The translations under genes and the position numbers were made by a program. A DNA stretch of 64,000 nt. Origin: an uncultured Tateyamaria sp. GTDB taxonomy: Bacteria; Pseudomonadota; Alphaproteobacteria; Rhodobacterales; Rhodobacteraceae. The stretch is taken from the NCBI RefSeq assembly GCF_947494755.1, contig NZ_CANLVZ010000012.1, positions 62,001 to 126,000 of the forward strand, written 5' to 3'. Position 1 is the stretch's first letter; each line of letters opens with the position of its first letter. Positions 13,637 through 62,991 of the stretch are shown piece by piece. The notes under the pieces were generated by a model that saw only the letters and a list, made by a program, of their open reading frames with translations, did not search any database and had not been told where the DNA came from.

Positions 13637-14187
13637 GCAGGCAGGCCCGGACTGCCCACGACGGCGGTTGTTGCACTATCGGTCAGTTCCAGCACGTCAT
13701 CATCCTCGAGTTGCAGCAGCTCGGTGAGTTTGGCGCGGGCGCGATTGACCCGGCTCTTGATCGTGCCTGTGGCCACGCCGCACATCTCCGCCGCCTCTTC
13801 GTAGGCAAAGCCGGAGGCCCCCACAAGGATCAACGCCTCGCGCTGCTCATCCGGCAACTGGTTCAGCGCCTTTTTGAAATCGGACATCTGCAGCCGTCCG
13901 TCATGCTCAGGTTTGACGGACAGGGTATCGGAAAATACGTTGTCCACGTCGGCCACTTCACGGTTCAGCTTGCGGCGGGACGTGTAGAAGTTGTTGCGCA
14001 GGATCGTAAACAGCCAGGCGCGCATATTGGTACCGGGCGTGAATTTATCCATGTTGGTCCACGCCTTGAGCACGGTGTCCTGCATCATGTCGTCGGCAGT
14101 TGCCCGGTTGCGCGTCAGGCTGAGCGCAAAGGCCCGTAGTGCTGGCAAATGTGTTACCAGCTCATCCCTTGGGTCCATGTCGCTCAT
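13633..14187 (-). CDS. ecfG: General stress response ECF sigma factor EcfG
   Basis: A 184-residue ECF sigma factor. Region 2 spans about residues 20-75 (ATADDMMQDTVLKAWTNMDKFTPGTNMRAWLFTILRN) and region 4 about 107-155 (LPDEQREALILVGASGFAYEEAAEMCGVATGTIKSRVNRARAKL). Position between nepR and a HisKA_2 kinase identifies the EcfG group, which directs transcription from GGAAC...GTT promoters. Overlaps nepR and the kinase by 4 nt each, so the operon is translationally coupled. Released when phosphorylated PhyR binds NepR. Confidence 0.93.
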   Translation of the reverse strand: MSDMDPRDELVTHLPALRAFALSLTRNRATADDMMQDTVLKAWTNMDKFTPGTNMRAWLFTILRNNFYTSRRKLNREVADVDNVFSDTLSVKPEHDGRLQMSDFKKALNQLPDEQREALILVGASGFAYEEAAEMCGVATGTIKSRVNRARAKLTELLQLEDDDVLELTDSATTAVVGSPGLPA

Positions 14188-14348
14188 TTGCTGTCCTTCG
14201 CCTCTTGATCCTGCGCGCGCAGGACGGACAACAGATCGGTGATTTCGTCAGGTAGATCGCCGGTTTGCAATTCAGCGAACACCTTCTTGAGATTTTGGTC
14301 GATATACGCATCGATTTGGGCGTTCTTGGGGTCTTGCTTACTTGCCAT
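14184..14348 (-). CDS. nepR: Anti-sigma factor NepR
   Basis: A 54-residue protein that binds and inhibits EcfG. The conserved NepR core is present: IDQNLKKVFAELQTGDLPDEITDLLSVL (residues 13-41), two short helices around a Leu-Pro turn. ATG 14348 was chosen because the upstream extension (to 14426) runs into the promoter region and does not resemble NepR. First gene of the nepR-ecfG-kinase-pld operon, divergent from phyR. Confidence 0.9.
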   Translation of the reverse strand: MASKQDPKNAQIDAYIDQNLKKVFAELQTGDLPDEITDLLSVLRAQDQEAKDSK

Positions 14349-14392
14349 TGAACCTCGATGCCTCATTTCGTTAAAAAAGTGTGCCTGTAACC

Positions 14393-14417
14393 GGAACCAA
14401 CTGCACTGTGGCGCGTT
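14393..14417 (+). promoter_or_regulatory. EcfG-type promoter for phyR
   Basis: GGAAC (14393-14397) and CGTT (14414-14417) with 16-nt spacing, 34 nt before the phyR ATG. Overlaps the opposing nepR promoter, indicating autoregulation of the stress module. Confidence 0.75.
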
Positions 14418-14424
14418 CGGTTCC
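14399..14424 (-). promoter_or_regulatory. EcfG-type promoter for the nepR-ecfG operon
   Basis: Minus-strand GGAAC (14424-14420) then AGTT (14402-14399) with 17-nt spacing. The two -35 elements face each other (GGAACC at 14393 and GGTTCC ending at 14424), so polymerase can occupy only one promoter at a time. Confidence 0.65.
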
Positions 14425-14451
14425 ATCTAAATACAAAAAAAGGTCGAAAAT

Positions 14452-15261
14452 ATGAGTGATACAAGTGCGGAGATGACTTTTTCCGACCTCCTGGCAGCTG
14501 AATTGCCATACTTGCGGCGCTATGCCCGTGCTCTGACAGGATCACAATCACGCGGGGACAAGTACACCGTCGCAACCCTCGAAGCGATCCTCAAAGATCG
14601 CACCCCTTTCGAAAATGACGATCCGATCAAGGTGAACCTGTTCAAATGCTTTCACTCGATCTGGGCGACCACCGGACAGGCATTGACCGAGCCAGAGGGT
14701 GATTTGCGCAGCCGCGCCCACGGTCTGCTTGCCAAGCTGACCCCCAATTCACGCGAAGCGCTGCTGCTGCGCACCATCGAAGAATTCAATATCAAACACG
14801 TAGCTGCCATCATGCAGGTGGACGCGGACGAAGTGCGCCACCTGATCTCTGCGGCCAACTCTGAGCTTGCCAAAAGCATCAAGGGTCGCGTGATGATTAT
14901 TGAGGATGAGCCGATCATCGCCGCCGACATCAGCGCAATCGTGACCAGCCTTGGCCACGAGGTCACCGGCATTGCCCGCACCCACACCGAGGCCCTGGAA
15001 CTGGGTAAGGAACAGCATCCGGACCTGATCCTTGCTGACATTCAGCTGGCCGATAACTCGTCCGGTATCGACGCGGTCGCCGACTTGCTTGAGATGATGG
15101 ACGTGCCGGTCATCTTTATCACGGCGTTCCCCGAACGTTTGCTGACCGGGGATCGCCCCGAACCGGCGTTCCTGATCTCCAAGCCGTTCCAAGAGGCGCA
15201 AGTGCTGTCAGCCGTCAGTCAGGCGATGTTCTTTGCTTCAACCGCAACGCTTAAGGCGTAA
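14452..15261 (+). CDS. phyR: General stress response regulator PhyR (sigma-mimic anti-anti-sigma factor)
   Basis: A 269-residue cytoplasmic regulator. Residues 1-140 form an ECF-sigma-like domain (SDLLAAELPYLRRYARALTGSQ through PNSREALLLRTIEEFNIKHVAAIMQ), and residues 146-265 form a receiver domain with acidic pocket EDE 151-153, phosphoacceptor D196 (LILADIQLAD), T224 and K244. On phosphorylation the sigma-like domain captures NepR and frees EcfG. Preceded by an EcfG promoter and followed by a strong terminator. Confidence 0.95.
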   Translation: MSDTSAEMTFSDLLAAELPYLRRYARALTGSQSRGDKYTVATLEAILKDRTPFENDDPIKVNLFKCFHSIWATTGQALTEPEGDLRSRAHGLLAKLTPNSREALLLRTIEEFNIKHVAAIMQVDADEVRHLISAANSELAKSIKGRVMIIEDEPIIAADISAIVTSLGHEVTGIARTHTEALELGKEQHPDLILADIQLADNSSGIDAVADLLEMMDVPVIFITAFPERLLTGDRPEPAFLISKPFQEAQVLSAVSQAMFFASTATLKA

Positions 15262-15266
15262 AACGG

Positions 15267-15297
15267 GCCCCGCGCTTATGAATGCGTGGGGCTTTTT
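15267..15297 (+). terminator. Rho-independent terminator after phyR
   Basis: A 9-bp GC-rich stem (15267-15275 with 15284-15292, one G-T pair), 8-nt loop, then TTTTT. It begins 5 nt after the phyR stop. Confidence 0.8.
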
Positions 15298-15309
15298 CAT
15301 GCGGCACGC

Positions 15310-15993
15310 TTAGTCAGCCGGATGGACGACCGTAAAGATTTGCCTTTCTGACGACCACTTGAGATTGCGGTGTTTTTCCATCTCGGAGAAGCGGTAATCG
15401 AGGTGCTTTTGGTTCAGCCATGTTAGCCACGACCGGATCGGGATCAGTGTTTTGTCGCCGTAGCCGTCGATAACCACAAACCGGCGATTTACCTCATCAA
15501 GGGCAATATTAGAGGGTCGCAAGTCCGGTACATTCACGTTCAGCGCAAAGATGTTGGCGACAAAGTCATTCAGCCATTTCAGCCGTTCATCGCTCAACGG
15601 ACCCTCTCGCAAGACATCCTCAAGCGTCTGAGCAACATTGCCTGACGCGTCGGCTATCTTCTCGCACACTTGCGCGAGGCCACGATCGGTGATCACCAAA
15701 CCGCCCATTTCAGCGATGGGGAGGGGGCGTTTTTGCTGCGCACAGCGGTAGGCGGTTTTCAGATAGCAGCGATATTCGATCCGGAACGTGCCGTAGGGGC
15801 CCATGCGGAAATAGTCGAGGGCGCGGCGCAGACCCCGGCGCCGCTCATATTTTTCGCGTTTGTAGGTGCGGATGGTCTTGAGAAGCTGATCGGGGTGGCC
15901 GGGGCGATGCCATACGTCTCGAACTTCGCCATTGGCGATGGGTTCGTAGTCCTTGAGTATCGTCAGACCAGCGGTCGTGTCAGTATTCGTCAT
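15310..15993 (-). CDS. YrbL-like (PhoP regulatory network) kinase-fold protein
   Basis: A 227-residue protein resembling the YrbL family, a small atypical kinase-like fold. Visible segments are GEVRDVWHRPGHPDQLLKTIR (glycine loop and lysine-like region) near the N-terminus, then DLRPSNIALDEVNRRFVVIDGYGDK (catalytic-loop/DFG-like) near residue 165. The biochemical role is unknown. ATG 15993 is my choice; another ATG at 16029 is in frame and neither has a clear Shine-Dalgarno. It converges on phyR across a terminator. No GGAAC promoter was found upstream. Confidence 0.7.
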   Translation of the reverse strand: MTNTDTTAGLTILKDYEPIANGEVRDVWHRPGHPDQLLKTIRTYKREKYERRRGLRRALDYFRMGPYGTFRIEYRCYLKTAYRCAQQKRPLPIAEMGGLVITDRGLAQVCEKIADASGNVAQTLEDVLREGPLSDERLKWLNDFVANIFALNVNVPDLRPSNIALDEVNRRFVVIDGYGDKTLIPIRSWLTWLNQKHLDYRFSEMEKHRNLKWSSERQIFTVVHPAD

Positions 15994-16200
15994 ATTTATG
16001 GTATACTTTTGTTCTTTGATGTTGGGCATCCAAGGGTTGCGGATCAGTGACAGGCAAGCGGCTCGAACACCATGGTAAATCATGACATCCGGCTTGTCAG
16101 CCAGACACAAGATCGCGGCGTTTGGCAACGGTCGACGCGCGACAATTACATTTTTTCGGACTGTTGGGGCAACGCGCATAGCAATGGCGCTGTGCGTCGG

Positions 16201-16368
16201 TCACTTCAAGCGGCTTACCAGATGCAGAACAAGCGTGGCGATAAACAGGACCAGGAACACGACAAACAGAAGTTGGGCAACACCTGCCGATGCCGCCGCA
16301 AATCCACCAAAGCCAAATAGCGCAGACACGAGTGCAACCACGAGAAACAGTACCGCAAAATATAACAT
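16201..16368 (-). CDS. DUF1328 small membrane protein
   Basis: A 55-residue protein, almost entirely two transmembrane helices (MLYFAVLFLVVALVSALFGFGGFAAAS and AQLLFVVFLVLFIATLVLHLV), matching DUF1328 (YtjA-like) in length and pattern. A strong AAAGGAG Shine-Dalgarno lies upstream of ATG 16368. Such peptides are commonly stress-induced; a GGAAC-N16-CATT element at 16451-16427 supports this here. Function unknown. Confidence 0.85.
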   Translation of the reverse strand: MLYFAVLFLVVALVSALFGFGGFAAASAGVAQLLFVVFLVLFIATLVLHLVSRLK

Positions 16369-16426
16369 TTCCTGCTCCTTTCGCTGTTGATGCCGATCGC
16401 GCCTGTTAGGCACCTTGAGGGGACCC

Positions 16427-16451
16427 AATGCGCGCACCAACGTAGAGTTCC
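16427..16451 (-). promoter_or_regulatory. Candidate EcfG-type promoter for the DUF1328 gene
   Basis: Minus-strand GGAAC (16451-16447), 16 nt, CATT (16430-16427). Same variant -10 as the MscS promoter candidate. About 60 nt from the ATG. Confidence 0.45.
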
Positions 16452-16473
16452 CGATTTTTTCTGACGATTTGAT

Positions 16474-16498
16474 GGAACATCCCTGTTGTTGGCGTGTT
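16474..16498 (+). promoter_or_regulatory. EcfG-type promoter for the DUF883/ElaB-like gene
   Basis: GGAAC (16474-16478), 16 nt, TGTT (16495-16498). The TTT-rich region between 16450 and 16470 separates it from the divergent DUF1328 promoter. The ATG is 30 nt downstream. Confidence 0.55.
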
Positions 16499-16528
16499 GG
16501 GATGACAACAGAAATAAGGAGAAGATCA

Positions 16529-16864
16529 ATGGCCAGCACTTTGCAGAAACTGAACAACAAGCGTGACGACGTGACAGCGAGTGATGTGGCAGATCAGGTT
16601 GAAATTCTGCGCAATGACATTGCCGCGCTGACCAAAACGATCTCTGATCTAAGCCTCGCCAAAGGCCAAGAGGCGGCTGAAGCCGCTCGGTCAACCCTTA
16701 ACGATGTGCGCGGCAAAGCTGCGGATGCCACCGAAACAGCGCGTCTGCAGGCCATGGAAGTTGGTGATCAGGCGAACGCCTTCATCAGGAACCAACCTGC
16801 AACCGCACTTGGTATTGCAGCCGGTCTGGGGTTTCTTGTTGGCTTCCTTGGGTCGCGGAAATAA
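16529..16864 (+). CDS. ElaB/YqjD/DUF883-like inner-membrane stress protein
   Basis: A 111-residue protein with a long amphipathic helical N-terminal region (residues 1-85, rich in Ala/Glu/Lys) and a single C-terminal hydrophobic helix with glycine motif (ALGIAAGLGFLVGFLGSRK). This is the tail-anchored architecture of the ElaB/YqjD family, whose E. coli members associate with ribosomes at stationary phase. ATG 16529 follows AAGGAGAAG. It is followed 3 nt later by a holin-like gene, probably in the same EcfG-driven operon. Confidence 0.8.
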   Translation: MASTLQKLNNKRDDVTASDVADQVEILRNDIAALTKTISDLSLAKGQEAAEAARSTLNDVRGKAADATETARLQAMEVGDQANAFIRNQPATALGIAAGLGFLVGFLGSRK

Positions 16865-16867
16865 TTG

Positions 16868-17203
16868 ATGTTCGGAATCCGAGAAAAAGTGGCGCAAACC
16901 GCCAGACGCGCAGGTCTCCTTTCGGGGGGCCTGCTGCTTTGCACGGTGGGATTCGGATTTTTGACGACCGCGGCTTGGTTCGCCTTGTTGCCGACCGTTG
17001 GGATAACGGTGACGGCATTGATCGTCGGGGCGGCTTATGCGGGTATCGGGCTGATACTCATCGGGGTTGGATCCGTTCAAACCAAGGGCCATCGTCCCGC
17101 ACAACCTCAACAAGCGGCTGATGCGCCTGACAGTCCCCCCATCGTCCAAGCTTTCATGTACGGACTTCAGGCCGGGACACAGGCCGACCGTGCGCGCCAT
17201 TAG
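16868..17203 (+). CDS. Holin-like (phage holin family / DUF1469-type) membrane protein
   Basis: A 111-residue protein with two hydrophobic segments (LLSGGLLLCTVGFGFLTTAAWFALLP and TALIVGAAYAGIGLILIGVG), then a polar Gln/Pro-rich tail. In alphaproteobacteria such genes often follow ElaB/YqjD-type genes, as here. Despite the family name there is no phage context. The first codon could be TTG 16865 or ATG 16868. Its 3' end overlaps the convergent receiver-like gene by 50 nt. Confidence 0.65.
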   Translation: MFGIREKVAQTARRAGLLSGGLLLCTVGFGFLTTAAWFALLPTVGITVTALIVGAAYAGIGLILIGVGSVQTKGHRPAQPQQAADAPDSPPIVQAFMYGLQAGTQADRARH

Positions 17204-17525
17204 ACAGTGCATCCATGATCATTGGAGTCGTAAAAGGTTTTTCGAGAATGGTGATCGGAACAACGGTTGGCCGCGCGTCGCCGACACAGATGATCTTGCC
17301 GCGCGACTGGATAATGGCGTGCTGCGTCGCTGGTTCAAGTTGAGGCATGAGGCTGCTGTTGACAAACACCGTCACCGGCCCTTTGGCCTGCAAAACCAAT
17401 GGTGTGGCGTCAGAGACCGTCGCGCATTCAGAAAGAATTGCGTCGACGTGCCCATCCTGCAAAGCACCCATGAGGTCCATTCGCACCAACGGATCGGGTT
17501 CTATAACGATAATGCTTTGAATCAC
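17154..17525 (-). CDS. Atypical receiver-domain protein lacking the phosphoacceptor Asp
   Basis: A 123-residue stand-alone protein with a receiver-like fold. The N-terminus SIIVIEPDPLVRMDL matches the first strand and acidic pocket (E9, D11), and K96 in ILEKPF matches the conserved lysine loop. The strand that should end in the phosphoacceptor Asp reads VTVFVNSS, with Asn at position 56. It is probably not phosphorylated at the canonical site and may act as a protein-protein adapter. It lies in the general stress island beside a Crp/Fnr gene. Identity as a receiver is inferred from pattern, so moderate confidence. Confidence 0.65.
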   Translation of the reverse strand: MIQSIIVIEPDPLVRMDLMGALQDGHVDAILSECATVSDATPLVLQAKGPVTVFVNSSLMPQLEPATQHAIIQSRGKIICVGDARPTVVPITILEKPFTTPMIMDALSNGAHGRPVSRPEVRT

Positions 17526-17613
17526 GCCTACGGATCCTTTGTCCTAGCGCTTCGACATTAACAATATACCCTACCCCCCCGCATTAATCTATGACATAGC
17601 AAGGAGGACAGTT

Positions 17614-18342
17614 ATGGCGACCAGATGCGACAGCTGCCCGCTGCGACAGGCTGAGATTTTCGAGAAAATGAACGGTGAGGATATTCAATTTACCCAACGA
17701 TTTAAGGTGGGTGAGCTGAGTGTCGACCCAGGCACGCCACTCCTGATGGAGGGCTCAAACAGTCCCCAACTGTTCACAGCCCTGCACGGAATGGGATTGC
17801 GTTATAAACTATTACCTAACGGAAGGCGCCAGGTCGTCAGTCTGATCTTCCCCGGTGACTTCATCGGTTTGCAGGCTGGAATCATGGGCGAAATGGGTCA
17901 TTCGGTCGAGGCGACAACCAAAATGACGCTCTGCGTTTTTGACCGCTCCGAAATCTGGTCCTTTTTCAAAGAGCGCCCCGAGCGGGCATTTTCCCTGACA
18001 TGGCTCGCCGCCGTGGAGGAGCATTTTCTGGGTGACACTTTGGCCACCCTTGGTCAGCGCACGGCCATGCAATCAATCGCTTGGGCGCTCTCGCGCGTTT
18101 TCGTGCGCGGCCAGGCGCTCGATATGGTGCACAACGGCGCGATGAAGTTCCCCTACAAGCAGCAGGACATTGCAGACGCACTCGGTCTGTCGCTTGTCCA
18201 CACAAACAAGACGCTGGCCGCGCTCAAGGCCAAACAATTGGCTCATTGGTCGGATGGCACATTGCGCATTCCTGACCTCGAGGCACTGGCAGAGGTCGGG
18301 TTACTTGATAATCTCGAACCGGCCACCAGGCCGATTATCTGA
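17614..18342 (+). CDS. Crp/Fnr family transcriptional regulator
   Basis: A 242-residue regulator. It has an N-terminal CDSCP (C5, C8), a cyclic-nucleotide-like sensor domain (FIFPGDFIGLQAGIMGEM-type loop near residue 90, here SLIFPGDFIGLQ) and a C-terminal winged helix (KFPYKQQDIADALGLSLVHTNKTLAALK, residues 173-200). Only two N-terminal cysteines are present, not the four-Cys cluster pattern of FnrL, so oxygen sensing by a 4Fe-4S cluster is not supported. AAGGAGGA precedes the ATG. Targets unknown. Confidence 0.88.
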   Translation: MATRCDSCPLRQAEIFEKMNGEDIQFTQRFKVGELSVDPGTPLLMEGSNSPQLFTALHGMGLRYKLLPNGRRQVVSLIFPGDFIGLQAGIMGEMGHSVEATTKMTLCVFDRSEIWSFFKERPERAFSLTWLAAVEEHFLGDTLATLGQRTAMQSIAWALSRVFVRGQALDMVHNGAMKFPYKQQDIADALGLSLVHTNKTLAALKAKQLAHWSDGTLRIPDLEALAEVGLLDNLEPATRPII

Positions 18343-53546: not shown

Positions 53547-54542
53547 ATGATCAACATCGCACTTCTGGGCTGCGGTCGTATCGGACAGGTTCATGCACGC
53601 AGCCTGATGGGCATGGGAGGCGCGCAGGTCGCAGCGGTGGCCGACGCGGTGCCCGAAGCGGGCGAAGCGCTGGCCAAACGCACCGGCGCGCCGCTCATGT
53701 CTGTCGAGGATATCATGGCAGCCTCGGACATTGATGCAGTGGTGATCGGCACGCCCACAACCACCCATTATAACCTGATCCACATGGCCGCCCGCGCCCA
53801 AAAGGGAATTTTCTGCGAAAAGCCCATCGACCTGAATGCCGGGCGGATCAAGGATTGCCTTGCTGTGGTCGAAACGCATGATGTGCCGTTCTTTGTCGCC
53901 TTCAACCGCCGGTTCGATCCGAACTTTCGCACCTTGCGTGCCCAGATCGACGCGGGCCGGATCGGCGACGTCGAGATGGTTACGATCCTATCGCGCGATC
54001 CATCCCCGCCGCCCATCGGCTATATCAAAACCTCGGGCGGGCTGTTTCGCGACATGATGATCCATGATCTGGATATGGCCCGGTTCTTGCTTGGCGAGGA
54101 CCCGGTTGAGGTCTTCGCCCATGCCTCGTGCCTCGTCGACCCCGAGATCGGCGAGGCCGGCGATGTAGACACGGCCATGGTATCGCTCCGCACGGCCAGC
54201 GGCAAGCTGTGCCAGATTTCGAATTCGCGCCGCGCCACTTATGGCTATGACCAGCGCATCGAGGTGCACGGGGCCAAGGGGATGCTGCGCGCCGACAATG
54301 TGCTGACTTCCACGGTCGAGATGTCGGATGCCGACGGCTTCCGCCGCGCCCCGACCGAGCCGTTCTTTCTGGAACGCTACGCCGAGGCTTATCGCGCCGA
54401 GATGGACCACTTCGTGGCGGTGCTGACCACCGGAAAACCCGCCTCGCCAAGCGGGATCGACGGGTTCAAGGCGCAGGTGATGGCCGATGCCGCGCAAGCC
54501 TCCCATGACAGCGGGGCACCGCAGAAACTGGTCTTTGACTGA
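53547..54542 (+). CDS. iolG: Inositol 2-dehydrogenase
   Basis: A 331-residue Gfo/Idh/MocA dehydrogenase oxidising myo-inositol to 2-keto-myo-inositol with NAD. GCGRIGQVHARSL (8-20), CEKPIDLNAGRI (about 92) and the catalytic Asp/His segment GGLFRDMMIHDLDMARFLLG (about 163-182). It is the last gene of the operon, 4 nt after iolJ. It is the shortest and most IolG-like of the three oxidoreductases in this locus. No iolA/mmsA is in the window. Confidence 0.93.
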   Translation: MINIALLGCGRIGQVHARSLMGMGGAQVAAVADAVPEAGEALAKRTGAPLMSVEDIMAASDIDAVVIGTPTTTHYNLIHMAARAQKGIFCEKPIDLNAGRIKDCLAVVETHDVPFFVAFNRRFDPNFRTLRAQIDAGRIGDVEMVTILSRDPSPPPIGYIKTSGGLFRDMMIHDLDMARFLLGEDPVEVFAHASCLVDPEIGEAGDVDTAMVSLRTASGKLCQISNSRRATYGYDQRIEVHGAKGMLRADNVLTSTVEMSDADGFRRAPTEPFFLERYAEAYRAEMDHFVAVLTTGKPASPSGIDGFKAQVMADAAQASHDSGAPQKLVFD

Positions 54543-54635
54543 CGCTCGGATCGCCGCGCTATAGGTCCGCTCTGCTGTCATTGGCGCGTTTGGGGCAACA
54601 CGCTGCACGGCAATCAGGCGCACCAATCAATGTGC

Positions 54636-55890
54636 TCATCGTTTGATTTCCAACGTCCGACCGTCCCATGTAACAGCACCGTCAAAGTCGCGCACGATCC
54701 GGTGCATGGCCTCGGCAATCGAGAGTTCCGCCGCCTGCCCATCGCTGAGTGTTGCAGCGTGATAGCACATCAACTGGTCAACCAGATTGGGCTTCAGGCT
54801 GTCGGTCTGGCTCAGCGCGTCGCCACGCCAGGTCACCTGCATCAATCTGGGCCGCCTATTTGCCGGTGACGGGGATGTTTTGCGCCAACCCTTGCGGATA
54901 AGTCGAAATCGCCGACGCGCTCATGCCAACAAGGTAGGGTGCGGCGTCATCGGTGCAGCCCTGAAAAGACCGTCTGAGGCGTCGATCAAACAAGGCCTGA
55001 ATCAACGCATCATCGGGCCGCGCAAAACGGTCAATCCCGATCTGGACGTAACCCTGACCGAGCAACGTCCTGCGCGCCTATTCGAACAGGTTTTGCCGCG
55101 CCTCGGGTTTGAGCAGGGCATCGGTCGGGATCAGAGACCGGCGTTTGGACATCCACGGCACATGGGCATAGCCAAACAGCGCGATCCGCCGGGGCTGCAT
55201 CTCAAGTACGGCATCCAGCGGGGCCGCCGGTGTCGTAGGCGTCTGGAACAGCAGGCCATAGAGCAAATCAAAGTTCAGGGCACCAACTCCGAGGACGCGC
55301 AAATCATCGACCACGGATTGGGTCAGATCGCGCGACTGGGTGCGCCCGATGGCGGCCTGCACTTGCGGGTCAAAGTCCTGAACGCAAAGGCTGACGCGGC
55401 TCAGCCCGTGTTGTGTCAGCATCGCAAGGCGGGCCGGGCCCACGTCTGTCGGGTCCCCCTCGAGCGAAAACTCATCATGATCGGACAGCCCTCAGATATC
55501 ATCCAAACCGCGCAACAGCCTGTCGAGCAGCGACGCTGACAGGATCGTGGCCGTCCCACTTCCCATATGCGGGCGCTTGGGCCCAACCCCGTTCACAAAG
55601 CTGCGGCGTTGATCCGCGGCCTTGCTCAAAACCCGCTCGACATATGACGCAAACGGGGCCGTTTTGCGGGTGCCTCCGGTTCGACACCCGCAAAACCAGC
55701 ACAATCTGCGCCAAAACGGAATGTGGAAATAAAGCGAAATCTCGGCATCCTCGGTCGCGTTGGATTGCCAGGTGCGCACGGGATCTGCGTTTATCCCTTC
55801 GCTGAACCAGTTCGCAGGTGGGTAGCTCTCAAGGCGTGGCACCTTCGCGTTGAACCGGCCAAAGTGACAGAGGTCGGATAAGCGTTTCAT
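54636..55890 (-). pseudogene. hemN: hemN pseudogene (oxygen-independent coproporphyrinogen III dehydrogenase)
   Basis: Reading from 55890: MKRLSDLCHFGRFNAKVPRLESYPPANWF, then LYFHIPFWRRLCWFCGCRT. This is the radical-SAM motif of HemN with Trp in place of the first iron-sulfur Cys. In-frame stops occur at 55494-55492 and 55080-55078, a third near 54847, and a frameshift near 54810 leads into WRGDALSQTDSLKPNLVDQLM. Family segments survive between (LCVQDFDPQVQAAIGRTQS, ALFGYAHVPWMSKR, GYVQIGIDRFARPDDAL). The C-terminus is truncated. The gene is dead and would have made protoporphyrin precursors anaerobically. Confidence 0.9.
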
Positions 55891-55924
55891 ACCCAAAACC
55901 TGCCTGCATTTTGTGCGGCCCGCT

Positions 55925-55938
55925 TTGACACAGATCAA
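55925..55938. promoter_or_regulatory. Relict FNR/FnrL box
   Basis: TTGACACAGATCAA matches the FNR consensus TTGAT/C-N4-ATCAA. It lies between the dead hemN (start 55890) and dead fnrL (start 55950), which are divergent. Confidence 0.7.
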
Positions 55939-55949
55939 CAGGTGACCAG

Positions 55950-56327
55950 ATGGCGTATTCCTTGGCCGCAGCCCGACCTGATCAAATTGCCCGATCCGTC
56001 ACCGCGCCCTGCGCGCGCCGTGACTATGACGCGTTGGAAGATTTGAACAAGGCCAAGTTCTACAAAACCTATGCGGCCGGCCAGACCATCGCGATGCACG
56101 GGGACGCGCTGGACTTGGTTGCCTTGGTGGTGAGTGGGGCAGCCACGCTGGAGTGCTGGACTGAGGACGGGCACACCCAATTGGTGGGAGTGCTGCCGCC
56201 CTCGGACGTCATTGGCCGTCCGGGCCGCGAGACGTTGCAAAAAGAGGTCGCAGCGGTGTCCCAAGTGACCTTTCGGCTGTTTCAGCAGCAAACCCTTCGC
56301 GGGGTTGCTGATCCAGGGTCGCGCTGA
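55950..56327 (+). pseudogene. fnrL: fnrL pseudogene (oxygen-sensing Crp/Fnr regulator)
   Basis: A 125-codon remnant of an about 250-residue FnrL. The sensor domain is recognisable (EDLNKAKFYKTYAAGQTIAMHGDALDLVALVVSGAATLE, LVGVLPPSDVIGRPGRETLQ), but the N-terminal iron-sulfur cysteine cluster is reduced to one PCARRD cysteine. The frame stops before the DNA-binding domain, which is absent. Adjacent relict hemN and cco genes support the identity. Confidence 0.85.
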
Positions 56328-56625
56328 TGGCCACCATTGGCGCGGATTGCGGATATGATCTGGCCTACATGGTGTACGCCGCGCTGATCATGTTGGTCGG
56401 GGGGAGGTGCATCTGGCAATTGCGCCAGATGGGTGACGCGAAACCGTCGTGGATACGTCCGGGTGTATGAACGGCGTGATCAGGGCGGGCGTCATCGCCG
56501 CCGGATTCTGGGGCGTTGTCGGTTTTCTGGTCGAGGTGTTCATCGCCTTCCAGCTTGCGTTTCGCGCGCTGAATTTCGATTGGGGCCAACCCTGTACCAA
56601 TTTTGGACGGCTGCGCCCGCTGGTC
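56327..56625 (+). pseudogene. ccoN: ccoN remnant (cbb3 oxidase subunit I), N-terminus only
   Basis: Starts MATIGADCGYDLAYMVYAALIMLVGG in one frame, stops at 56470, and continues in another frame as [53 protein letters not shown], the CcoN N-terminal signature. Only about 95 of some 540 codons remain. All heme-copper ligand helices are deleted. Confidence 0.85.
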
Positions 56626-57054
56626 GACAGTTGGCTGCTTTTGGCGATGATGGTCTTTTGCATCACCGCCTGGCCGCTGATCAATTTGGCCGCAGTCGGG
56701 GTTCTGGGGTGCTCCACACGGGGCGAGGTGGCCGATCAGATCGCGGCCATAGAAGAGCTGAACGCCGACGCGGCGCAGCGCCTTGCCTCGGCGAATCTGT
56801 CCACGCTCGCGCGGGATGATCCGGCCCACCGCTACGGCGCGGCCGCGCGCGCGACCGTGTTTCTTCGCACTGCTCGCGATGTCACCGCTTGGGTGCCGAG
56901 CGCGCCGTGGGCTGCCCGAACCTGCTTGAAGACATCGGATACACCGTTCGCAACGGTATTCGCAACGAACCGAACCCGTGCACGTGCTGGTCACAGATGC
57001 CCGTCTTTCTTGAGTTGTTCGAAGAAGAGGAAAACGCCGCCACGGTCGAATAGG
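56626..57054 (+). pseudogene. ccoP: ccoP remnant (cbb3 oxidase diheme cytochrome c subunit)
   Basis: Continues in frame from cco[44 protein letters not shown], a CcoP segment. After a frameshift near 56860, CSRCH (heme-binding CxxCH, 56871-56885) and [23 protein letters not shown] follow, then SQMPVF. The second heme domain is missing. The ccoN end, ccoO, ccoQ and the ccoP start have been lost in one deletion. Confidence 0.85.
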
Positions 57055-57655
57055 TGTTGGTTCAGTCGGGCATCGACCACCGCGCCGGACAGCTGATGGC
57101 GTGCATCACTTGCGCGCTTTGCATCGATGCCAGCGATGACGTGATGGAACGCATTGGCAAGCCGCCCGGGCTGATCGACTACATCGCTTTGGCCGACAAA
57201 GAGCGCGAGACCGCAGGCGCACCTCCGCGCCCGATCTGGCAGCATGTGCTACGGACCTGCAAGATCTTATATACCGCGCTGTGATGGCTGATCGGGGAGG
57301 CGGTGGTCTATGCGCTCTTCACCCCCTCCGAGATCGGCCTCACCGTCGAGCCGGTGCGCAATCCGCAATTTGTGACCTTATCGAACGGGGCCGTGCGTAT
57401 CCGCAACCTGGCAGCCGACGACCGCACGATTCGGTTCATGCTCACCTCGGACGAGATATTGCGCATTGAGGTCGAAACCAACGGGCCGAACGAACGCCAC
57501 GTGACCGTTCCTGCCAACCAGACGATGCAGGCGGTGTTGACGTCACCGCGCGGCCTCATGACCCGGCCGCAGAGGCCGAAGTCACCGACCTGCGTCAATG
57601 GTTCGAAGGCGACAGCCACGCCGGCGTCGCCATCATTTTCAACGGAAGGGGATAG
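57055..57655 (+). pseudogene. ccoG: ccoG remnant (cbb3 assembly protein, FixG/RdxB)
   Basis: C-terminal half only: [51 protein letters not shown], in which the last ferredoxin Cys is Ser. An in-frame TGA at 57282-57284 interrupts YTAL-WLIGEAVVYALFT. Then EIGLTVEPVRNPQFVTLSNGAVRIRNL follows, with a frameshift near 57555 before DLRQWFEGDSHAGVAIIFNGRG and a stop. The N-terminal membrane part is deleted. Confidence 0.87.
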
Positions 57656-57658
57656 CCC

Positions 57659-57950
57659 ATGTTTTCACGCGAACTCACCGGCTGGCATGTGGCTGCGATT
57701 TTCGGCGGGGCCTTTGCGGTCATCATCGGGGCCGTCGTGCCGGGCATCACAGCCGCCACGCTTGGCCGTGCCACCCATGTCGCCGACGACCGCAGCCCTG
57801 TATTTTACGATGAGGGCGCCCGTTTCGCGGCCGAGGTCGGCACCCTCGCGCGCGGCAACTGGAACCTGCGGATCGCGGCCGAAGCGGATGATGGCACCGC
57901 CTTTCGCCAACGCGTGTTCGTGCGGGTCGCGCCACGACCATGGCCCCATT
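57659..57950 (+). pseudogene. ccoH: ccoH remnant (cbb3 assembly protein, FixH)
   Basis: MFSRELTGWHVAAIFGGAFAVIIGAV, then directly LGRATHVADDRSPVFYDEG and GNWNLRIAAEADDGTAFRQRVFV. The family's middle part (about 60 residues) is deleted in frame, and the 3' end runs on into ccoI sequence to 58024. It follows ccoG by 3 nt, the original gene order. Confidence 0.82.
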
Positions 57951-59286
57951 CCCCCGATGCGTTGCCGCTCGCCCTACCATTGAATGGGTGGCGGCACAGG
58001 CGGGAATGCCCACGCATGAGTTGATCCTGCGCCCCAACCACTGTTCGGCGCTGTATCAGCGCGGTTGAGCGGCTTTTGAACGCGCGCCCCGACATTGCCG
58101 CCGCCCGCGTCAACCTCAGCCGCAAGCGGGTTGCGATCACGGCGGGGCCGCGGCTGGACCCGGCCCGTGGAGGAGATCGTGACCGGTGATATGCTGTCGC
58201 TGGCCGCAGGCCCTGCGTTCCGGTTGGTTTTGACGAGCGACAGCGCGCAGGTGGACCGCAGCGCGCTGACGGAGGAAAGTGACGCTTTCGAAGTGCGAAC
58301 GGGCGCGATCCCGATAGCAGGCGATGTGGTGCTGACAGGCCCCGTGACCCTGCCACCAGCGTCGATACCAAGGTCTCAATCCTGCGCCCTCTGGTCTATC
58401 TCGTCGCCCTCGCCATTGCCATCGCAACGCTCATCGTCACGTGTCCTTGGGCTCGCCGTGCCTGCGGTCGCGACGGGGCGACTGTTTTGCATGGGTGTGC
58501 TGGTCAAATCTGAAACTGCTCTTGAACGGTTGGCCCCGGAACGCTCAGCGACAGTGGTTTGGTGGTGCCAGCGGAGATGCCTGTTGCGGCGGACAGTGTA
58601 CTCAAAGCACTGGCGCAAGCCTCGCGGCACCCGCCCAGCCGGAGCGTCTTGGGTGCGTTGGTTGATGCGCAGGTCGCACATATTGACGTTATCCAAGACC
58701 ATCGGGGCAAGGGCGTGTGCGCCTGCTGTGATGGTCGCCCGGTCGCCTTGGGGAACGGAGCATGGCTTGGTCTGGGCGCAGAAACATGAGTGCAGATTGG
58801 CGATGCGGCCCAGTTGGTGGAACGGCGCGAGCGCGTGGTGCCGGATGCAATGCCAATGCTGCGCGCATGGCCGCGCACCTGCCCGTAGATCACATCCATG
58901 CCGAGGTCGACCCAAAAGCGAAACAAGCCCTGATCCGCGATCTGCAAGCTCAAGGGCGGCGTGTGCACATGGTCGGCGACGGGCTCAACGATACGCTGGC
59001 GGTGACGCAGGCTTGGGCCTCTATCGCGCCGGGCACCGTGTTCGAGGCAAGCCAGAATGCCGCTGATGTCGTTCTGCTTGGGCAACATCTCTCGGGCATT
59101 TCGGCCGTTCTGCGCATTGCGCGCAGCGCGCGGCGGCGGATCCTTGAAAACTTCGCCCTCGCAGTAGGGTAAAACTGCATCGCGATTCCGCTTGCGCTGA
59201 TGGGGTTCGCGCCCCCCTTGATGGCCGCGCTGGCCATGTCGACCAGTTCGATCACCGTGACACGCGACGCACTGAGGGTAAGATAA
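57951..59286 (+). pseudogene. ccoI: ccoI remnant (copper-transporting P-type ATPase, FixI)
   Basis: Scattered CcoI pieces in three frames: CISAVERLLNARPDIAAARVNLSRKRVAI (metal-binding domain end), VEEIVTGDMLSLAAGPAFRLVLTSDSAQVDRSALTEESDAF (TEES for TGES), LAIAIATLIVTCP then a frameshift to LGLAVPAVATGR (damaged CPC motif), and later VHMVGDGLNDTLAV, AADVVLLGQHLSGISAVLRIARSARRRILENFALAVG, an in-frame stop at 59170, then LMAALAMSTSSITVTRDALRVR. The DKTGT phosphorylation site is gone. Confidence 0.87.
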
Positions 59287-59290
59287 GATA

Positions 59291-59445
59291 TTGAATATAA
59301 TTGTTATTCTTTTGCCGTATTCCCTGATCCCCGGCCTTGGGACATTGATCGCTTTCATCTGGACGCTGCGGCACGATCAATATTCGGACCCCGCAGGCGA
59401 TGCGCACCGTCTCCTGCTGGAGCAGGAAGATGCCCACGGTCCTGA
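59291..59445 (+). pseudogene. ccoS: ccoS remnant (cbb3 maturation protein, FixS)
   Basis: LNIIVILLPYSLIPGLGTLIAFIWTLRHDQYSDPAGDAHRLLLEQED matches the about 50-residue CcoS: one membrane helix, then an acidic tail. The start codon is TTG and the normal stop is lost; the frame stays open to 59656. It is 4 nt after the ccoI end, as expected for ccoI-ccoS. Confidence 0.75.
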
Positions 59446-59828: not shown

Positions 59829-60911
59829 ATGACGCGCGCCTTGCCCCATATCGCGGCCATGTCGCCCTATGCGCTTGCGGACATGCAGGCGCCGGACGGG
59901 GTTGCGCTCATTTCACTGTCCCAAAACGAAAGTCTGCGCGCGCCAAGTCCTGTGGCGGTCGAGGCGGCGCAGGCCACATTGGGGCAGGGGATGCTGTACC
60001 CTGACCCTGATTGGACCGACTTGCGCGCGGCGATTGCATCGGTTCACGGTATTGATCCGGCCAATATCCTGTGCGGAAACGGGTCGCTCGATTTGATCGG
60101 CTGCCTCGCACGCGTTTTTGCCGGACCGGCGCGGGCCGCGCTGGCGCCCGCCCATGCCTACCCTTTTTTCCGCACCGTTGCGCAGATGGCGCAGGCCCGG
60201 TTCGACACGGCACCTGAGGAGGGCACGACAGTCTCCGTGGACGCCCTTTTGGCAGCCGTGCAACCCGACACAGGTATCGTGTTTGTGGCCAATCCAGGCA
60301 ATCCGACCGGAACCCACATTCCGCGCGGAGATCTCGACAGATTGCGCGCAGGCTTGCGGGACGACATCCTGTTGGTGATTGACGAGGCTTACGGCGAGTT
60401 TGCCGATCATCAGACGGCCCCCTGTTTTGACATGATCGCCGCAGGCAACACGGTGGTGCTGCGCACATTTTCCAAAGCCTACGGGATGGCGGGGTTTCGG
60501 ATCGGTTGGGGGTTGTTTCCGCCGTATATCGCGGCGGAGATGCGCAAGGTGATGAACCCCAACAACATCTCCGCGGCCGCCCAGGCAGGGGCGGCAGCGG
60601 CGATGCGGGATCAGTCCTATATGCGTGAGACCTGCGCAATGACCGCGCAAATCCGCGAAGAGGCCGCGACCGCCTTGCGCGCGCTTGGGTTTGCGGTCGG
60701 CCCGAGCTTTACCAACTTTGTTCTGATGGACATGAGCAACGCAGAGCGCGCCGCCCATGCCGATGCGTTTTTGCGCAAGCGGGGCATGTTCCTGCGGGCC
60801 CAGGGCGGCGCGGGTCTGTCGCATATGATGCGCATGACCATTGGGACCAGGGCCGATACGCAACAGGCCATTGCCCTTTTGGATCAGTGGCAGCAGGAGA
60901 ACAGGACATGA
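59829..60911 (+). CDS. PLP-dependent aminotransferase, HisC-like (class I/II)
   Basis: A 360-residue enzyme. NPGNPTGT (near 156), IDEAYGEFAD (near 187) and the PLP lysine motif FSKAYGMAGFRIGWG (near 220) are present. Resembles histidinol-phosphate aminotransferases, but it is far from his genes and heads an operon of racemase-like, MmgE/PrpD and hydroxyacid dehydrogenase genes, so a catabolic role on another amino or keto acid is likely. GAAGG precedes the ATG. ATGA overlap with the next gene. Confidence 0.88.
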   Translation: MTRALPHIAAMSPYALADMQAPDGVALISLSQNESLRAPSPVAVEAAQATLGQGMLYPDPDWTDLRAAIASVHGIDPANILCGNGSLDLIGCLARVFAGPARAALAPAHAYPFFRTVAQMAQARFDTAPEEGTTVSVDALLAAVQPDTGIVFVANPGNPTGTHIPRGDLDRLRAGLRDDILLVIDEAYGEFADHQTAPCFDMIAAGNTVVLRTFSKAYGMAGFRIGWGLFPPYIAAEMRKVMNPNNISAAAQAGAAAAMRDQSYMRETCAMTAQIREEAATALRALGFAVGPSFTNFVLMDMSNAERAAHADAFLRKRGMFLRAQGGAGLSHMMRMTIGTRADTQQAIALLDQWQQENRT

Positions 60912-61651
60912 GCGCGTCCCGCGGACAGGCGCGATTTGGCGTGCTGGTCCCTTTCACCAATTCGAACCTTGAGCCGGACATGGCCCTGTTGCGCCCGGAC
61001 GGTGTTTCCCTCCACTTTGCGCGCATGGGGGGCTATGACGAGGACGAAATACCGGACGCCGACCAGATGCATGCATTGGGGGCTGCGGACCTCGACGAAC
61101 CCTTGCGGCTGCTCACTGGGGTCAAACCGGATGTCGTCGTTTATGGCTGCACCTCGGCGACACTCACCCATGGGCCAGCCTTTGACCGCGATTTGGCCGC
61201 GCGCATTGCCCAAGCCAGCGGGGCCAAGACGGTCACGGCTGCGGGCGCGCTGGTGGCTGCGCTGACGGCGCTCGAGGCCAGGAAGATCGCATTTGCCTCG
61301 CCTTACGTGCCCACGATCAACGACATGGCGATCCACTTCCTCGGCCAAATGGGGTTTGACACCGTACACCGCGCTGATTTTGAGGGCACGCTGGACAATG
61401 AAGGGCAGGGCGCGCTCAGCCCGCGCGAAGTCTTTGCCCTTGGGCAGCGCGCCGATCACCTGGAAGCTGAGGTTGTGGTTCTGTCATGTACGGACATGCG
61501 CAGTGTGGAGGTTCTGGAGGATCTCGAACAAGCGTTGGGCAAACCCGTCATCAGTTCAAATCAGGCGATGGTGTTTCAGGCGATGTGCCTGCTTGGCCTG
61601 CGCGCACCAATCACCGGCTTTGGTCAATTGCTCGCATCGGAGCGTTCATGA
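60908..61651 (+). CDS. Asp/Glu racemase superfamily protein (maleate isomerase / arylmalonate decarboxylase-like)
   Basis: A 247-residue protein. The N-terminal GVLVPFTNSNLEPDM, catalytic Cys in VYGCTSATLTHG (near 80) and second Cys in VVLSCTDMRSVEVL (near 195) match the maleate cis-trans isomerase / arylmalonate decarboxylase branch. Likely acts on a dicarboxylic acid. Overlaps the neighbouring genes by 4 nt on both sides. Confidence 0.85.
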   Translation: MSASRGQARFGVLVPFTNSNLEPDMALLRPDGVSLHFARMGGYDEDEIPDADQMHALGAADLDEPLRLLTGVKPDVVVYGCTSATLTHGPAFDRDLAARIAQASGAKTVTAAGALVAALTALEARKIAFASPYVPTINDMAIHFLGQMGFDTVHRADFEGTLDNEGQGALSPREVFALGQRADHLEAEVVVLSCTDMRSVEVLEDLEQALGKPVISSNQAMVFQAMCLLGLRAPITGFGQLLASERS

Positions 61652-62991
61652 CCTTTGACGATATTGCCGCATTTACCTTGGGACCATGTACCGTGCCGGA
61701 CGCTGCCCTCGACATGGCCGCGACCTTGTTGATTGACACTTTGGGCGTGGCCGCGGGGGCAGATGGGATGCAGGCCGGACAGATCGCGCGCGATCATGCG
61801 GTGCGCTTTCACGGCGCATCAAATCCGGACGATCAGGCCACGATCCTGTTTGATGGTCGCCGCGCTTCGCTATCGGGGGCCGCATTTGCGGCCGCCACGC
61901 AGATCGATAATCTGGATGCGCATGACGGCTACAACCCGACGCTTGGGCATATCGGCTGCGCGGTGGTGCCCGCGCTGTGCGCGTTTGGAGAGCACCTGCC
62001 CGACCTTTCAGCGCGCGATGCCTTGCGCGCGATGGTGATGGCTTATGAGGTATCAGCAAGGGCCGCCATCGCGCTGCACGCCAGCGTCGCGGATTATCAC
62101 ACGTCCGGTGCGTGGAATGCGCTTGGGGTTGCGGCGCTTGGCTGTCGGCTGCGCGGGGCAACGGCGGACCAGTTGCGGCATGCCTTGGGGATTGCAGAAT
62201 ACCACGGACCGCGCAGTCAGATGATGCGCGAAATCGCCAACCCCACCATGCTGCATGACGGGTCCGGCATGGGCGCTTTGGTTGGAACTATGGCGGTGCT
62301 GATGGCTGAAAACGGGTTCGAGGGTGCCCCTGCCATCACCGTCGAAGCCGCTGATATTGCACCGCATTGGGCCGATCTGGGCCAAAGCTGGACGATCACA
62401 CATAACTACATCAAACCCTATCCGATTTGCCGTTGGGCGCATGCCGCCCTTGATGGGTTCGGAGACTTGATCGACGGGCACAGCCTGACGGCGGACGACA
62501 TTGCCGCCATCAAAGTGCGCACCTTTGATAAGGCGGCCGCTTTGTTTCCGGGCATGCCAGAGACGACCTCGCAGGCGCAGTATTCGCTGGCCTTTGCTTT
62601 GGGCGCGCGGCTGGTGCATGGGCGGATCAATGCGGACCACATCTCGGGTGCAGAACTGAATAACGCGCAGGTGGCCGCTATCGTGGACAAAATCACGGTG
62701 CAGGAAGACGCGCGGCATACATCACGCTTTCCTGCGGGACGCTGGTCAGATGTGACGGTGCGCTTGCGGGATGGACGCAGACTGAGCTCGGGGGAGGTGC
62801 ATGCTCGCGGCGGGCCCGAGGCCCCGATGGCGCTTGGCGATGTCGAGGCGAAATTCCACGCCATCTCGGGCGCGTTACCGCCACCGCGCAAGACCGCGAT
62901 CTGGGCAATGCGCGCCAAAATGCAAGAACCGGATACCAAATTCAGTGATCTTCTGGCCCTGATCCACCCCCCGGTAGGAGAGAGCACATGA
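61648..62991 (+). CDS. MmgE/PrpD family protein
   Basis: A 447-residue member of the MmgE/PrpD fold, which includes 2-methylcitrate dehydratase, cis-aconitate decarboxylase and iminodisuccinate epimerase. Conserved regions: LLIDTLGVAAGA (near 25), AATQIDNLDAHDGYNPTLGHIGCAVVPALCAFGE (near 85-115), WNALGVAALGCRLRGATADQLRHALGIAEYHG and NYIKPYPICRWAHAALDG. Reaction unknown; other operon members suggest a dicarboxylic or amino-dicarboxylic acid substrate. ATGA overlaps at both ends. Confidence 0.88.
   Translation: MTFDDIAAFTLGPCTVPDAALDMAATLLIDTLGVAAGADGMQAGQIARDHAVRFHGASNPDDQATILFDGRRASLSGAAFAAATQIDNLDAHDGYNPTLGHIGCAVVPALCAFGEHLPDLSARDALRAMVMAYEVSARAAIALHASVADYHTSGAWNALGVAALGCRLRGATADQLRHALGIAEYHGPRSQMMREIANPTMLHDGSGMGALVGTMAVLMAENGFEGAPAITVEAADIAPHWADLGQSWTITHNYIKPYPICRWAHAALDGFGDLIDGHSLTADDIAAIKVRTFDKAAALFPGMPETTSQAQYSLAFALGARLVHGRINADHISGAELNNAQVAAIVDKITVQEDARHTSRFPAGRWSDVTVRLRDGRRLSSGEVHARGGPEAPMALGDVEAKFHAISGALPPPRKTAIWAMRAKMQEPDTKFSDLLALIHPPVGEST

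Follow-up and report, generated by a model that had tools for sequence, protein, structure and literature searches.

Decayed remains of a microaerobic hemN-fnrL-cco locus in an uncultured Tateyamaria species

In Dinoroseobacter shibae, the regulator FnrL activates the operon of the high-affinity cbb3-type oxidase together with hemA and hemN, and usp genes are among its targets (PMC5398030). Direct FnrL targets in two Rhodobacter species include fnrL itself, uspA and ccoN, and in one of these species also hemA and hemN (PMC4634722). Here we describe the remains of a locus of this kind in a 64,000-nucleotide stretch of DNA (hereafter the window; positions 62001-126000 of contig C12) from an uncultured Tateyamaria sp. 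of the Rhodobacteraceae, whose genome comprises 4,109,052 bases in 60 contigs and is 99.85% complete; the window itself contains no N. The decayed locus shares the gene order and orientation of the Rhodobacterales locus hemN-fnrL-uspA-ccoNOQP-ccoGHIS, but all of its genes are truncated, frameshifted, interrupted by stops or deleted.

A related situation has been described for the CHUG roseobacters, where the close marine Rhodobacteraceae M1M2 and M3M4M5 likewise differ in a cco operon with fnrL upstream, and where members without the operon were measured to take up oxygen with lower affinity (PMC9426536). The available part of that report describes presence and absence, whereas in the window the decayed genes, hemN included, are still in place. 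The cbb3-type oxidase is also absent from pelagic roseobacter clusters, which that study ties to oxygen-rich pelagic water, with two deep-branching species excepted; those clusters lack a bd oxidase too, whereas the window's genome keeps a bd-type oxidase (PMC12661815). The absence of cbb3 from marine roseobacters is already published, and what is new here is a well-preserved case and a quantified pattern of co-loss. Among the listed literature matches to cbb3, fnrL, hemN or ccoN, pseudogene, Rhodobacteraceae and Tateyamaria, no title or abstract opening mentioned a decayed locus of such a kind.

The decayed copy, colinear with hemN-fnrL-usp-ccoNOQP-ccoGHIS, lies at 54546-59445 of the window, as established by tblastn and by alignment to the genome G009. 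G009 is the nearest relative, and we equate it with 'Uncultured Tateyamaria sp. isolate 4-1'. The hisC-like protein flanking the locus has its closest named relative among 11 loci in that isolate (L032, 90% identity), and a tree of HemF places the window's genome as sister to G009 (support 99/83). The G009 locus (L043, reversed) encodes hemN, fnrL, usp, ccoN, ccoO, ccoQ, ccoP, ccoG, ccoH, ccoI and ccoS complete, with one open frame apiece, and is bordered by iolG and hisC-like genes as in the window. Searches of the window with the intact G009 proteins (tblastn) recovered hemN, fnrL, ccoN, ccoQ, ccoP, ccoG, ccoH, ccoI and ccoS, arranged in this order and with an intact gene on either side. Five other members of the genus (G006, G018, G016, G007 and G003; tblastn) keep the gene order as well, with iolG to the left of the locus in four of the five fetched stretches and the hisC-like gene found by tblastn beside it in none of them. 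The intact locus of the same order and flanks in the sister genome, together with the order in the other five, indicates that the locus was present before the two lineages split and was disabled afterwards. We regard the stretch as almost certainly a unitary fossil of the whole microaerobic module, which probably decayed when the need for it lapsed.

Relative to G009, the locus shows 34 gaps amounting to 5,736 bp (23 of them frameshifting) and four insertions totalling 22 bp (three frameshifting), although a few tiny aligned islands among the large gaps probably reflect noise in the alignment and the small gaps are unpolarised, which makes the count of deletion events an approximation. Ten premature stops interrupt the ancestral frames of hemN, fnrL, ccoP, ccoG and ccoI, and each remaining gene of the locus bears stops, frameshifts or deletions of its own. 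Both flanks are intact: iolG, encoding inositol 2-dehydrogenase (53547..54542, plus strand; TIGR04380, 425.7 bits, above the cut-off), aligns gap-free over 331/331 amino acids at 89% identity to G009, and the hisC-related aminotransferase on the right (59829..60911, plus strand; TIGR01141, 251.5 bits, under the cut-off of 276.55) comprises 360 amino acids and is 90% identical, also without gaps. The earlier note on this DNA had described seven adjacent decayed genes in a known microaerobic order at 54636-59445, each broken between intact flanks, and had proposed a comparison with the same locus in sister species. Pfam, tblastn and the colinear G009 copy between the same flanks bear out that description; its start is moved to near 54546, and to its contents we add a scrap of ccoQ, the complete disappearance of usp and a residue of 5 bp of ccoO.

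The hemN remnant (oxygen-independent coproporphyrinogen III oxidase; 54546-55890, minus strand; located by tblastn and alignment) is nearly whole in length, with 99% of the G009 gene aligned, yet its ancestral frame is interrupted by five premature stops, 8 bp are missing in a gap, and Trp replaces the first Cys of the CxxxCxxC radical-SAM motif. It scores 240.4 bits against TIGR00538 (cut-off 324.95) with three stops within the match, and does not provide the CxxxCxxC motif in an open frame above the family cut-off that characterizes a HemN coproporphyrinogen dehydrogenase. Of fnrL only the first half with the cNMP-binding part remains (55950..56316, plus strand; cNMP_binding, tblastn and alignment), covering 49% of the G009 gene and carrying gaps of 1, 2 and 4 bp, a 5-bp insertion, a stop at ancestral codon 12 and changes in three of six Cys codons. 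The 3' half, where the helix-turn-helix is expected, is deleted, and the remnant lacks the combination of Fe-S cysteines and Crp-type helix-turn-helix of an FnrL oxygen sensor. A single deletion of 1,008 bp, with its junction at 56316..56317 in the alignment to G009, took the 3' half of fnrL, the entire usp gene with two adjoining FNR sites and the start of ccoN, and thereby fused the first half of fnrL to ccoN.

The oxidase genes are reduced further. The N-terminal part of ccoN (56317..56646, plus strand; TIGR00780 E 4.5e-11, profile positions 7-67) contains one frameshift and ends at 56646 by tblastn and at 56620 by global alignment. A deletion of about 2.1 kb, comprising the 3' part of ccoN and nearly all of ccoO, joins it to a scrap of ccoQ (56602..56670, plus strand; tblastn, ccoQ amino acids 4-26). 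The middle part of ccoP (56668..57058, plus strand; tblastn and alignment) carries a frameshift and a stop at ancestral codon 192, and about 1.3 kb is missing from ccoP into ccoG, of which the C-terminal part remains (57059..57655, plus strand; Fer4_18 1e-10, FixG_C 3e-6) with a frameshift and a stop at ancestral codon 345. Among the accessory genes, ccoH (57659..57937, plus strand; FixH 7.7e-10) has a 180-bp internal gap and has lost its stop codon, and ccoI (57934..59286, plus strand; tblastn and alignment) has an altered start codon, 13 gaps and two insertions in the pairwise alignment to G009 and two premature stops in the ancestral frame. The mildest damage is found in ccoS (59291..59445, plus strand; FixS 1.6e-12), where 155 of 156 bp align, TTG stands where ATG stood, a 1-bp gap lies near the 3' end, and the frame now continues to 59656. 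The aligned share of each G009 gene is zero for usp, 19% for ccoN, 1% for ccoO (5 of 813 bp), 20% for ccoQ, 45% for ccoP, 42% for ccoG, 61% for ccoH, 63% for ccoI and 99% for ccoS. The complete CcoN, CcoO and CcoP of a functional cbb3 oxidase are not encoded. A Pfam scan of 20 pieces of the stretch (E up to 0.1) gave matches above the cut-off to cNMP_binding (FnrL), Fer4_18 and FixG_C (CcoG), FixH, Hydrolase (CcoI) and FixS (CcoS), and below it to Radical_SAM (HemN), HMA and E1-E2_ATPase (CcoI) and Cytochrome_CBB3 (CcoP, E 0.05); nine pieces were without a match, and two matches (MASE7, Sha_B_N) were stray and weak.

The substitutions tell of the same decay. Differences between the window and G009 were assigned to branches with up to five outgroup genomes, with 350 ambiguous sites set aside and usp and ccoO left out. 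Over 1,580 codons, the window branch accumulated 230 nonsynonymous and 108 synonymous changes, distributed 116:105:117 over the codon positions (ratio of nonsynonymous to synonymous changes per site, pN/pS, 0.74), versus 46 and 100 on the G009 branch (30:21:95; pN/pS 0.16), a difference with a Fisher p of 1e-13. Equality of the codon positions holds on the window branch (p 0.67) and is departed from on the G009 branch (p 3e-15). The intact flank iolG shows a distribution of 6:6:31 and a pN/pS of 0.156 on the window branch; it is the only flank control, as the hisC-like and EutA-like genes, the gene at 61648-62988 and a dehydrogenase gene lacked sufficient outgroup copies in the stretches compared and were set aside. 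The flat pattern over codon positions argues for old, near-neutral decay and against assembly error. If intact genes evolve at a pN/pS of 0.16 and dead ones at 1, about 70% of the window branch since the split evolved unconstrained. Across gene groups, pN/pS on the window branch ranges from 0.56 to 1.27 without significant heterogeneity in N:S (seven groups, ccoH and ccoS pooled, ccoQ left out; chi-square p 0.41). An order of gene death was sought in these ratios and abandoned on the same grounds. Deletion through short direct repeats was also considered and rejected (15 gaps of at least 20 bp; mean microhomology 0.93 bp vs 0.73 bp at random, p 0.24).

A fossil born of lapsed need has one serious competitor, a physical accident in which one early deletion killed the locus and the linked genes of the then silent operon decayed with it. 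This is a possibility we consider unlikely without discarding it. The 1,008-bp deletion alone removes the 3' half of fnrL, usp and the start of ccoN, and linkage is common, with hemN, fnrL and ccoN within about 8 kb in relatives such as G022, G024 and G026. However, the divergently oriented hemN is physically almost whole, and point changes have nevertheless disabled it at much the same rate. Moreover, linkage is not universal: the distance from ccoN to hemN and fnrL is about 29 kb in G029 and about 68 kb in G020, and in G034 hemN is on a different contig from fnrL and ccoG, although the ancestral layout in losing lineages may have differed.

The rest of the genome offers little that could have made the locus redundant. 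No second CcoN was found in the 99.85%-complete draft, where TIGR00780 matches the fossil only (E 4.5e-11), and no intact HemN, TIGR00538 matching only the fossil and a 385-amino-acid protein of a kind (383-385 amino acids) seen in all 20 genomes of the genus and taken as HemW. Nor was a full FnrL found in this draft; the searches returned the fragment, at 61% identity, and two Crp/Fnr paralogs at 23-24% identity, one of which lies inside the window (17614-18342; 76 bits against an FnrL cut-off of 300). Within the locus, CcoN, HemN and FnrL were the proteins that these genome-wide searches covered. The only COX1 (PF00115) gene belongs to a group with a single member in every one of the 20 genus genomes and is taken as an aa3-type CtaD. 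One intact CydA (PF01654) gene is present at C8:61628-62923, and HemF (PF01218) is encoded as well. Compared with the CydA of E. coli bd-I, about 62 residues (317-378) are absent, a stretch which we assign to the Q-loop, making this presumably a short Q-loop form; sequence alone does not reveal its affinity for oxygen. That another cbb3, HemN or Fnr system replaced the locus is accordingly very improbable: second CcoN copies do occur in G004, G002 and G009, but none was found in the window's genome, where the other searches gave only the HemW-like protein and the two distant Crp/Fnr paralogs. Since CydA-type oxidases occur in 18 of the 20 genus genomes, the bd oxidase is probably not a new arrival either. 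Homology with synteny, disabling lesions, selection relaxed on the fossil branch only and, for CcoN, HemN and FnrL in this draft, the lack of a functional paralog are all found together, as in a unitary pseudogene.

Slightly less credible still is the retention of some fragments for a new task, such as a truncated FnrL of 125 codons or a CcoS read from the TTG start. The fnrL and ccoS fragments do form open reading frames that match cNMP_binding and FixS above the cut-off, but pN/pS on the window branch reaches 1.27 in fnrL and 1.05 in the pooled ccoH and ccoS, all on small counts, and the 3' half is missing from the fnrL piece. Assembly or sequencing errors that make a working locus appear broken deserve practically no credence, even in a draft of 60 contigs, since stretches of 1.0, about 2.1 and about 1.3 kb are missing, the 230 nonsynonymous changes are distributed evenly among the codon positions, and the flanks remain gap-free at 88-93% protein identity to G009.

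Several observations weigh against the reading as a unitary fossil. A pN/pS of 0.74 rather than 1 implies that, with 0.16 as baseline, about 30% of the branch was still under selection. The small gaps are unpolarised by outgroups, and some may be insertions in G009. As the genome is a draft in 60 contigs, an assembly gap could conceivably hide a second copy, and the single genome seen may not speak for the whole species. Furthermore, one FNR site within the locus and an exact FNR box beside hemA are still present.

The first of these sites lies between hemN and fnrL (55925..55938, plus strand), has one mismatch to TTGATNNNNATCAA and is identical in its letters to G009, where FNR-type sites are found between hemN and fnrL and 5' of usp, of ccoN and of ccoG. 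The exact box TTGATNNNNATCAA occurs at two sites in the window's genome vs 5-18 in the other 19 genus genomes. Three of the 11 exact sites of G009 are in the cbb3 locus, one is by hemA and one by a gene for a GntR-type regulator (gene names assigned by eye); a further one is inside an SdhB-like frame about 375 bp before a NorB-like gene, and five are in coding or unclear places. The two sites left in the window's genome are those by hemA and the GntR-type gene. A genome-wide decay of FnrL operators was considered and is unsupported, since the low count is largely due to the loss of the cbb3 locus itself. The exact box that separates hemA from an M20-type peptidase gene (C4:195824-195837; names by eye) is the same in both sister genomes; kept where no FnrL was found, it may have another reader or be there by chance.

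Within the genus, CcoN above the cut-off is encoded by 18 of the 20 genomes, the exceptions being the window's genome, with the fossil only, and G019, without a match. G019 resembles the window's genome in that CcoN, HemN and FnrL were not found and one COX1 protein, a bd oxidase and HemF are kept; it differs in retaining no trace of the locus in a DNA search and in its size of 3.1 Mb, against 4.1-5.6 Mb in the other members. As it groups with the CcoN-keeping G012 on the HemF tree, it represents an independent, second loss in the genus. The sister genomes are opposite in their oxidases: G009 encodes two CcoN copies (C4:212330-213709 and C11:25871-27220) and gives no CydA match, and the window's genome shows the reverse, CydA without CcoN. 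G010 is likewise without a CydA match. In G002, ccoN of the primary locus (C6:99184-100583, L066) is split by a frameshift, representing early decay or a sequencing error, and the remaining locus genes align whole; a second, diverged and intact CcoN on C16 is the copy by which G002 was counted as positive.

The comparison across the family used 295 genomes, a subset of a larger group, all with a completeness of 97% or more. CcoN is absent or weak in 21 of them (16 without a match and five weak, including the window's genome), with the split or partial matches in G032, G063, G065, G138 and G191 scored as positive. HemN is missing from 42, namely the fossil and 41 genomes with nothing better than E 1e-60 (G176 at 4.9e-57 included); one genome below the cut-off, necessarily G215 (E 1.9e-94), was scored as positive. 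Both are absent in 19 genomes, CcoN only in two, HemN only in 23, and both are present in 251, such that 19 of the 21 CcoN-lacking genomes are also without an intact HemN (plain Fisher test ignoring kinship, p 2e-16). HemN is missing more often than cbb3, as 23 of the 295 genomes keep CcoN without HemN beyond the HemW level (e.g. G028, G067, G084, G094 and G102), G065 among them having CcoN as a split match only.

FnrL was searched in 45 genomes, with at least 50% identity required of a full-length protein. It is found in none of the 20 genomes lacking both CcoN and HemN (19 of the family and G019), in both of those lacking only CcoN, in five of eight tested among the 23 lacking only HemN, and in all 15 tested that have both (eight of the genus, seven of the family). 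HemF is present in 44 of these 45 genomes, G152 giving no match, and on the tree of these 44 HemF proteins CcoN changed state at least 13 times, HemN at least 10 times and FnrL at least 12 times. In nine independent pairs on starred branches, CcoN and FnrL changed the same way in 5.7, the opposite way in 0 and showed no difference in 3.3 (median p 0.031, range 0.031-0.125); the corresponding figures for CcoN and HemN are 4.3, 1.0 and 3.7 (median p 0.375, not significant), and HemN and FnrL reach a median p of 0.0625. The tree is built on one gene, 17 of its 41 inner branches are open, its bootstrap is unsettled and its rows were chosen by CcoN state. Given so weak a tree and rows selected in this way, co-loss of CcoN, HemN and FnrL in the family is likely rather than proven.

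The earlier note had read the locus as the loss of high-affinity oxygen respiration, anaerobic heme synthesis and their regulator as one functional unit, and had proposed a search for intact copies elsewhere in the genome. That search returned none for CcoN, HemN and FnrL. The unity of the loss is favoured by the even decay across gene groups and the recurrent co-absence, and qualified by the 23 of 295 genomes with CcoN but no HemN and the 2 of 295 with HemN but no CcoN. The loss of high-affinity respiration was too strongly worded because an intact bd-type oxidase, which might work at low oxygen, is retained; what was lost is respiration based on cbb3. For heme synthesis and the regulator, fossils of HemN and FnrL with no second copy found agree with the note, the heme loss being limited, as far as found, to the oxygen-independent route at the coproporphyrinogen step.

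The fossil has some further uses and surroundings. Polarised changes at 54546-59445 comprise 171 GC-to-AT changes at 2,378 ancestral GC sites and 79 AT-to-GC changes at 1,211 AT sites, corresponding to an equilibrium GC content of about 0.48, vs an actual 0.62. It could act as a neutral yardstick for base-change bias, and about 4.9 kb of near-neutral sequence next to an intact sister copy is useful for studying both indel and base-change bias in the lineage. A plasmid origin of the window was considered and rejected, the plasmid search yielding only scattered matches that covered at most 6% of the query. Elsewhere in the window, 10395-18342 has a lower GC content (about 0.54-0.60) and encodes phospholipase-D-like, HisKA_2 kinase, PhyR-type response regulator, YrbL-like and Crp/Fnr-type proteins, probably a general stress response locus.

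The finding is real, rests on good support and belongs to a kind that is already understood; what it adds is a clean comparison with the sister genome and the tabulated co-loss. We hypothesize that the lineage shifted to a life in which oxygen rarely runs out, or in which the bd oxidase suffices, and that the oxidase and its assembly factors, the anaerobic route to heme and the oxygen sensor all ceased to be under selection at roughly one time, as a cell never low on oxygen would release all FnrL-linked functions together. The present cell would respire via aa3-like and bd-type oxidases and synthesize heme via the oxygen-dependent HemF. In the family, FnrL might stay while either the cbb3 oxidase or HemN survives and go once both are gone, a rule we put forward tentatively and to which the three FnrL misses among the eight tested genomes with CcoN only are exceptions. 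It makes the testable prediction that FnrL is lost once CcoN and HemN are both gone and, if true, the window would be a snapshot of a step that other genomes have already finished. The locus catches half-erased a transition that is elsewhere visible only as absence, the loss of an oxidase together with its assembly factors, the oxygen-independent heme step and the sensor.

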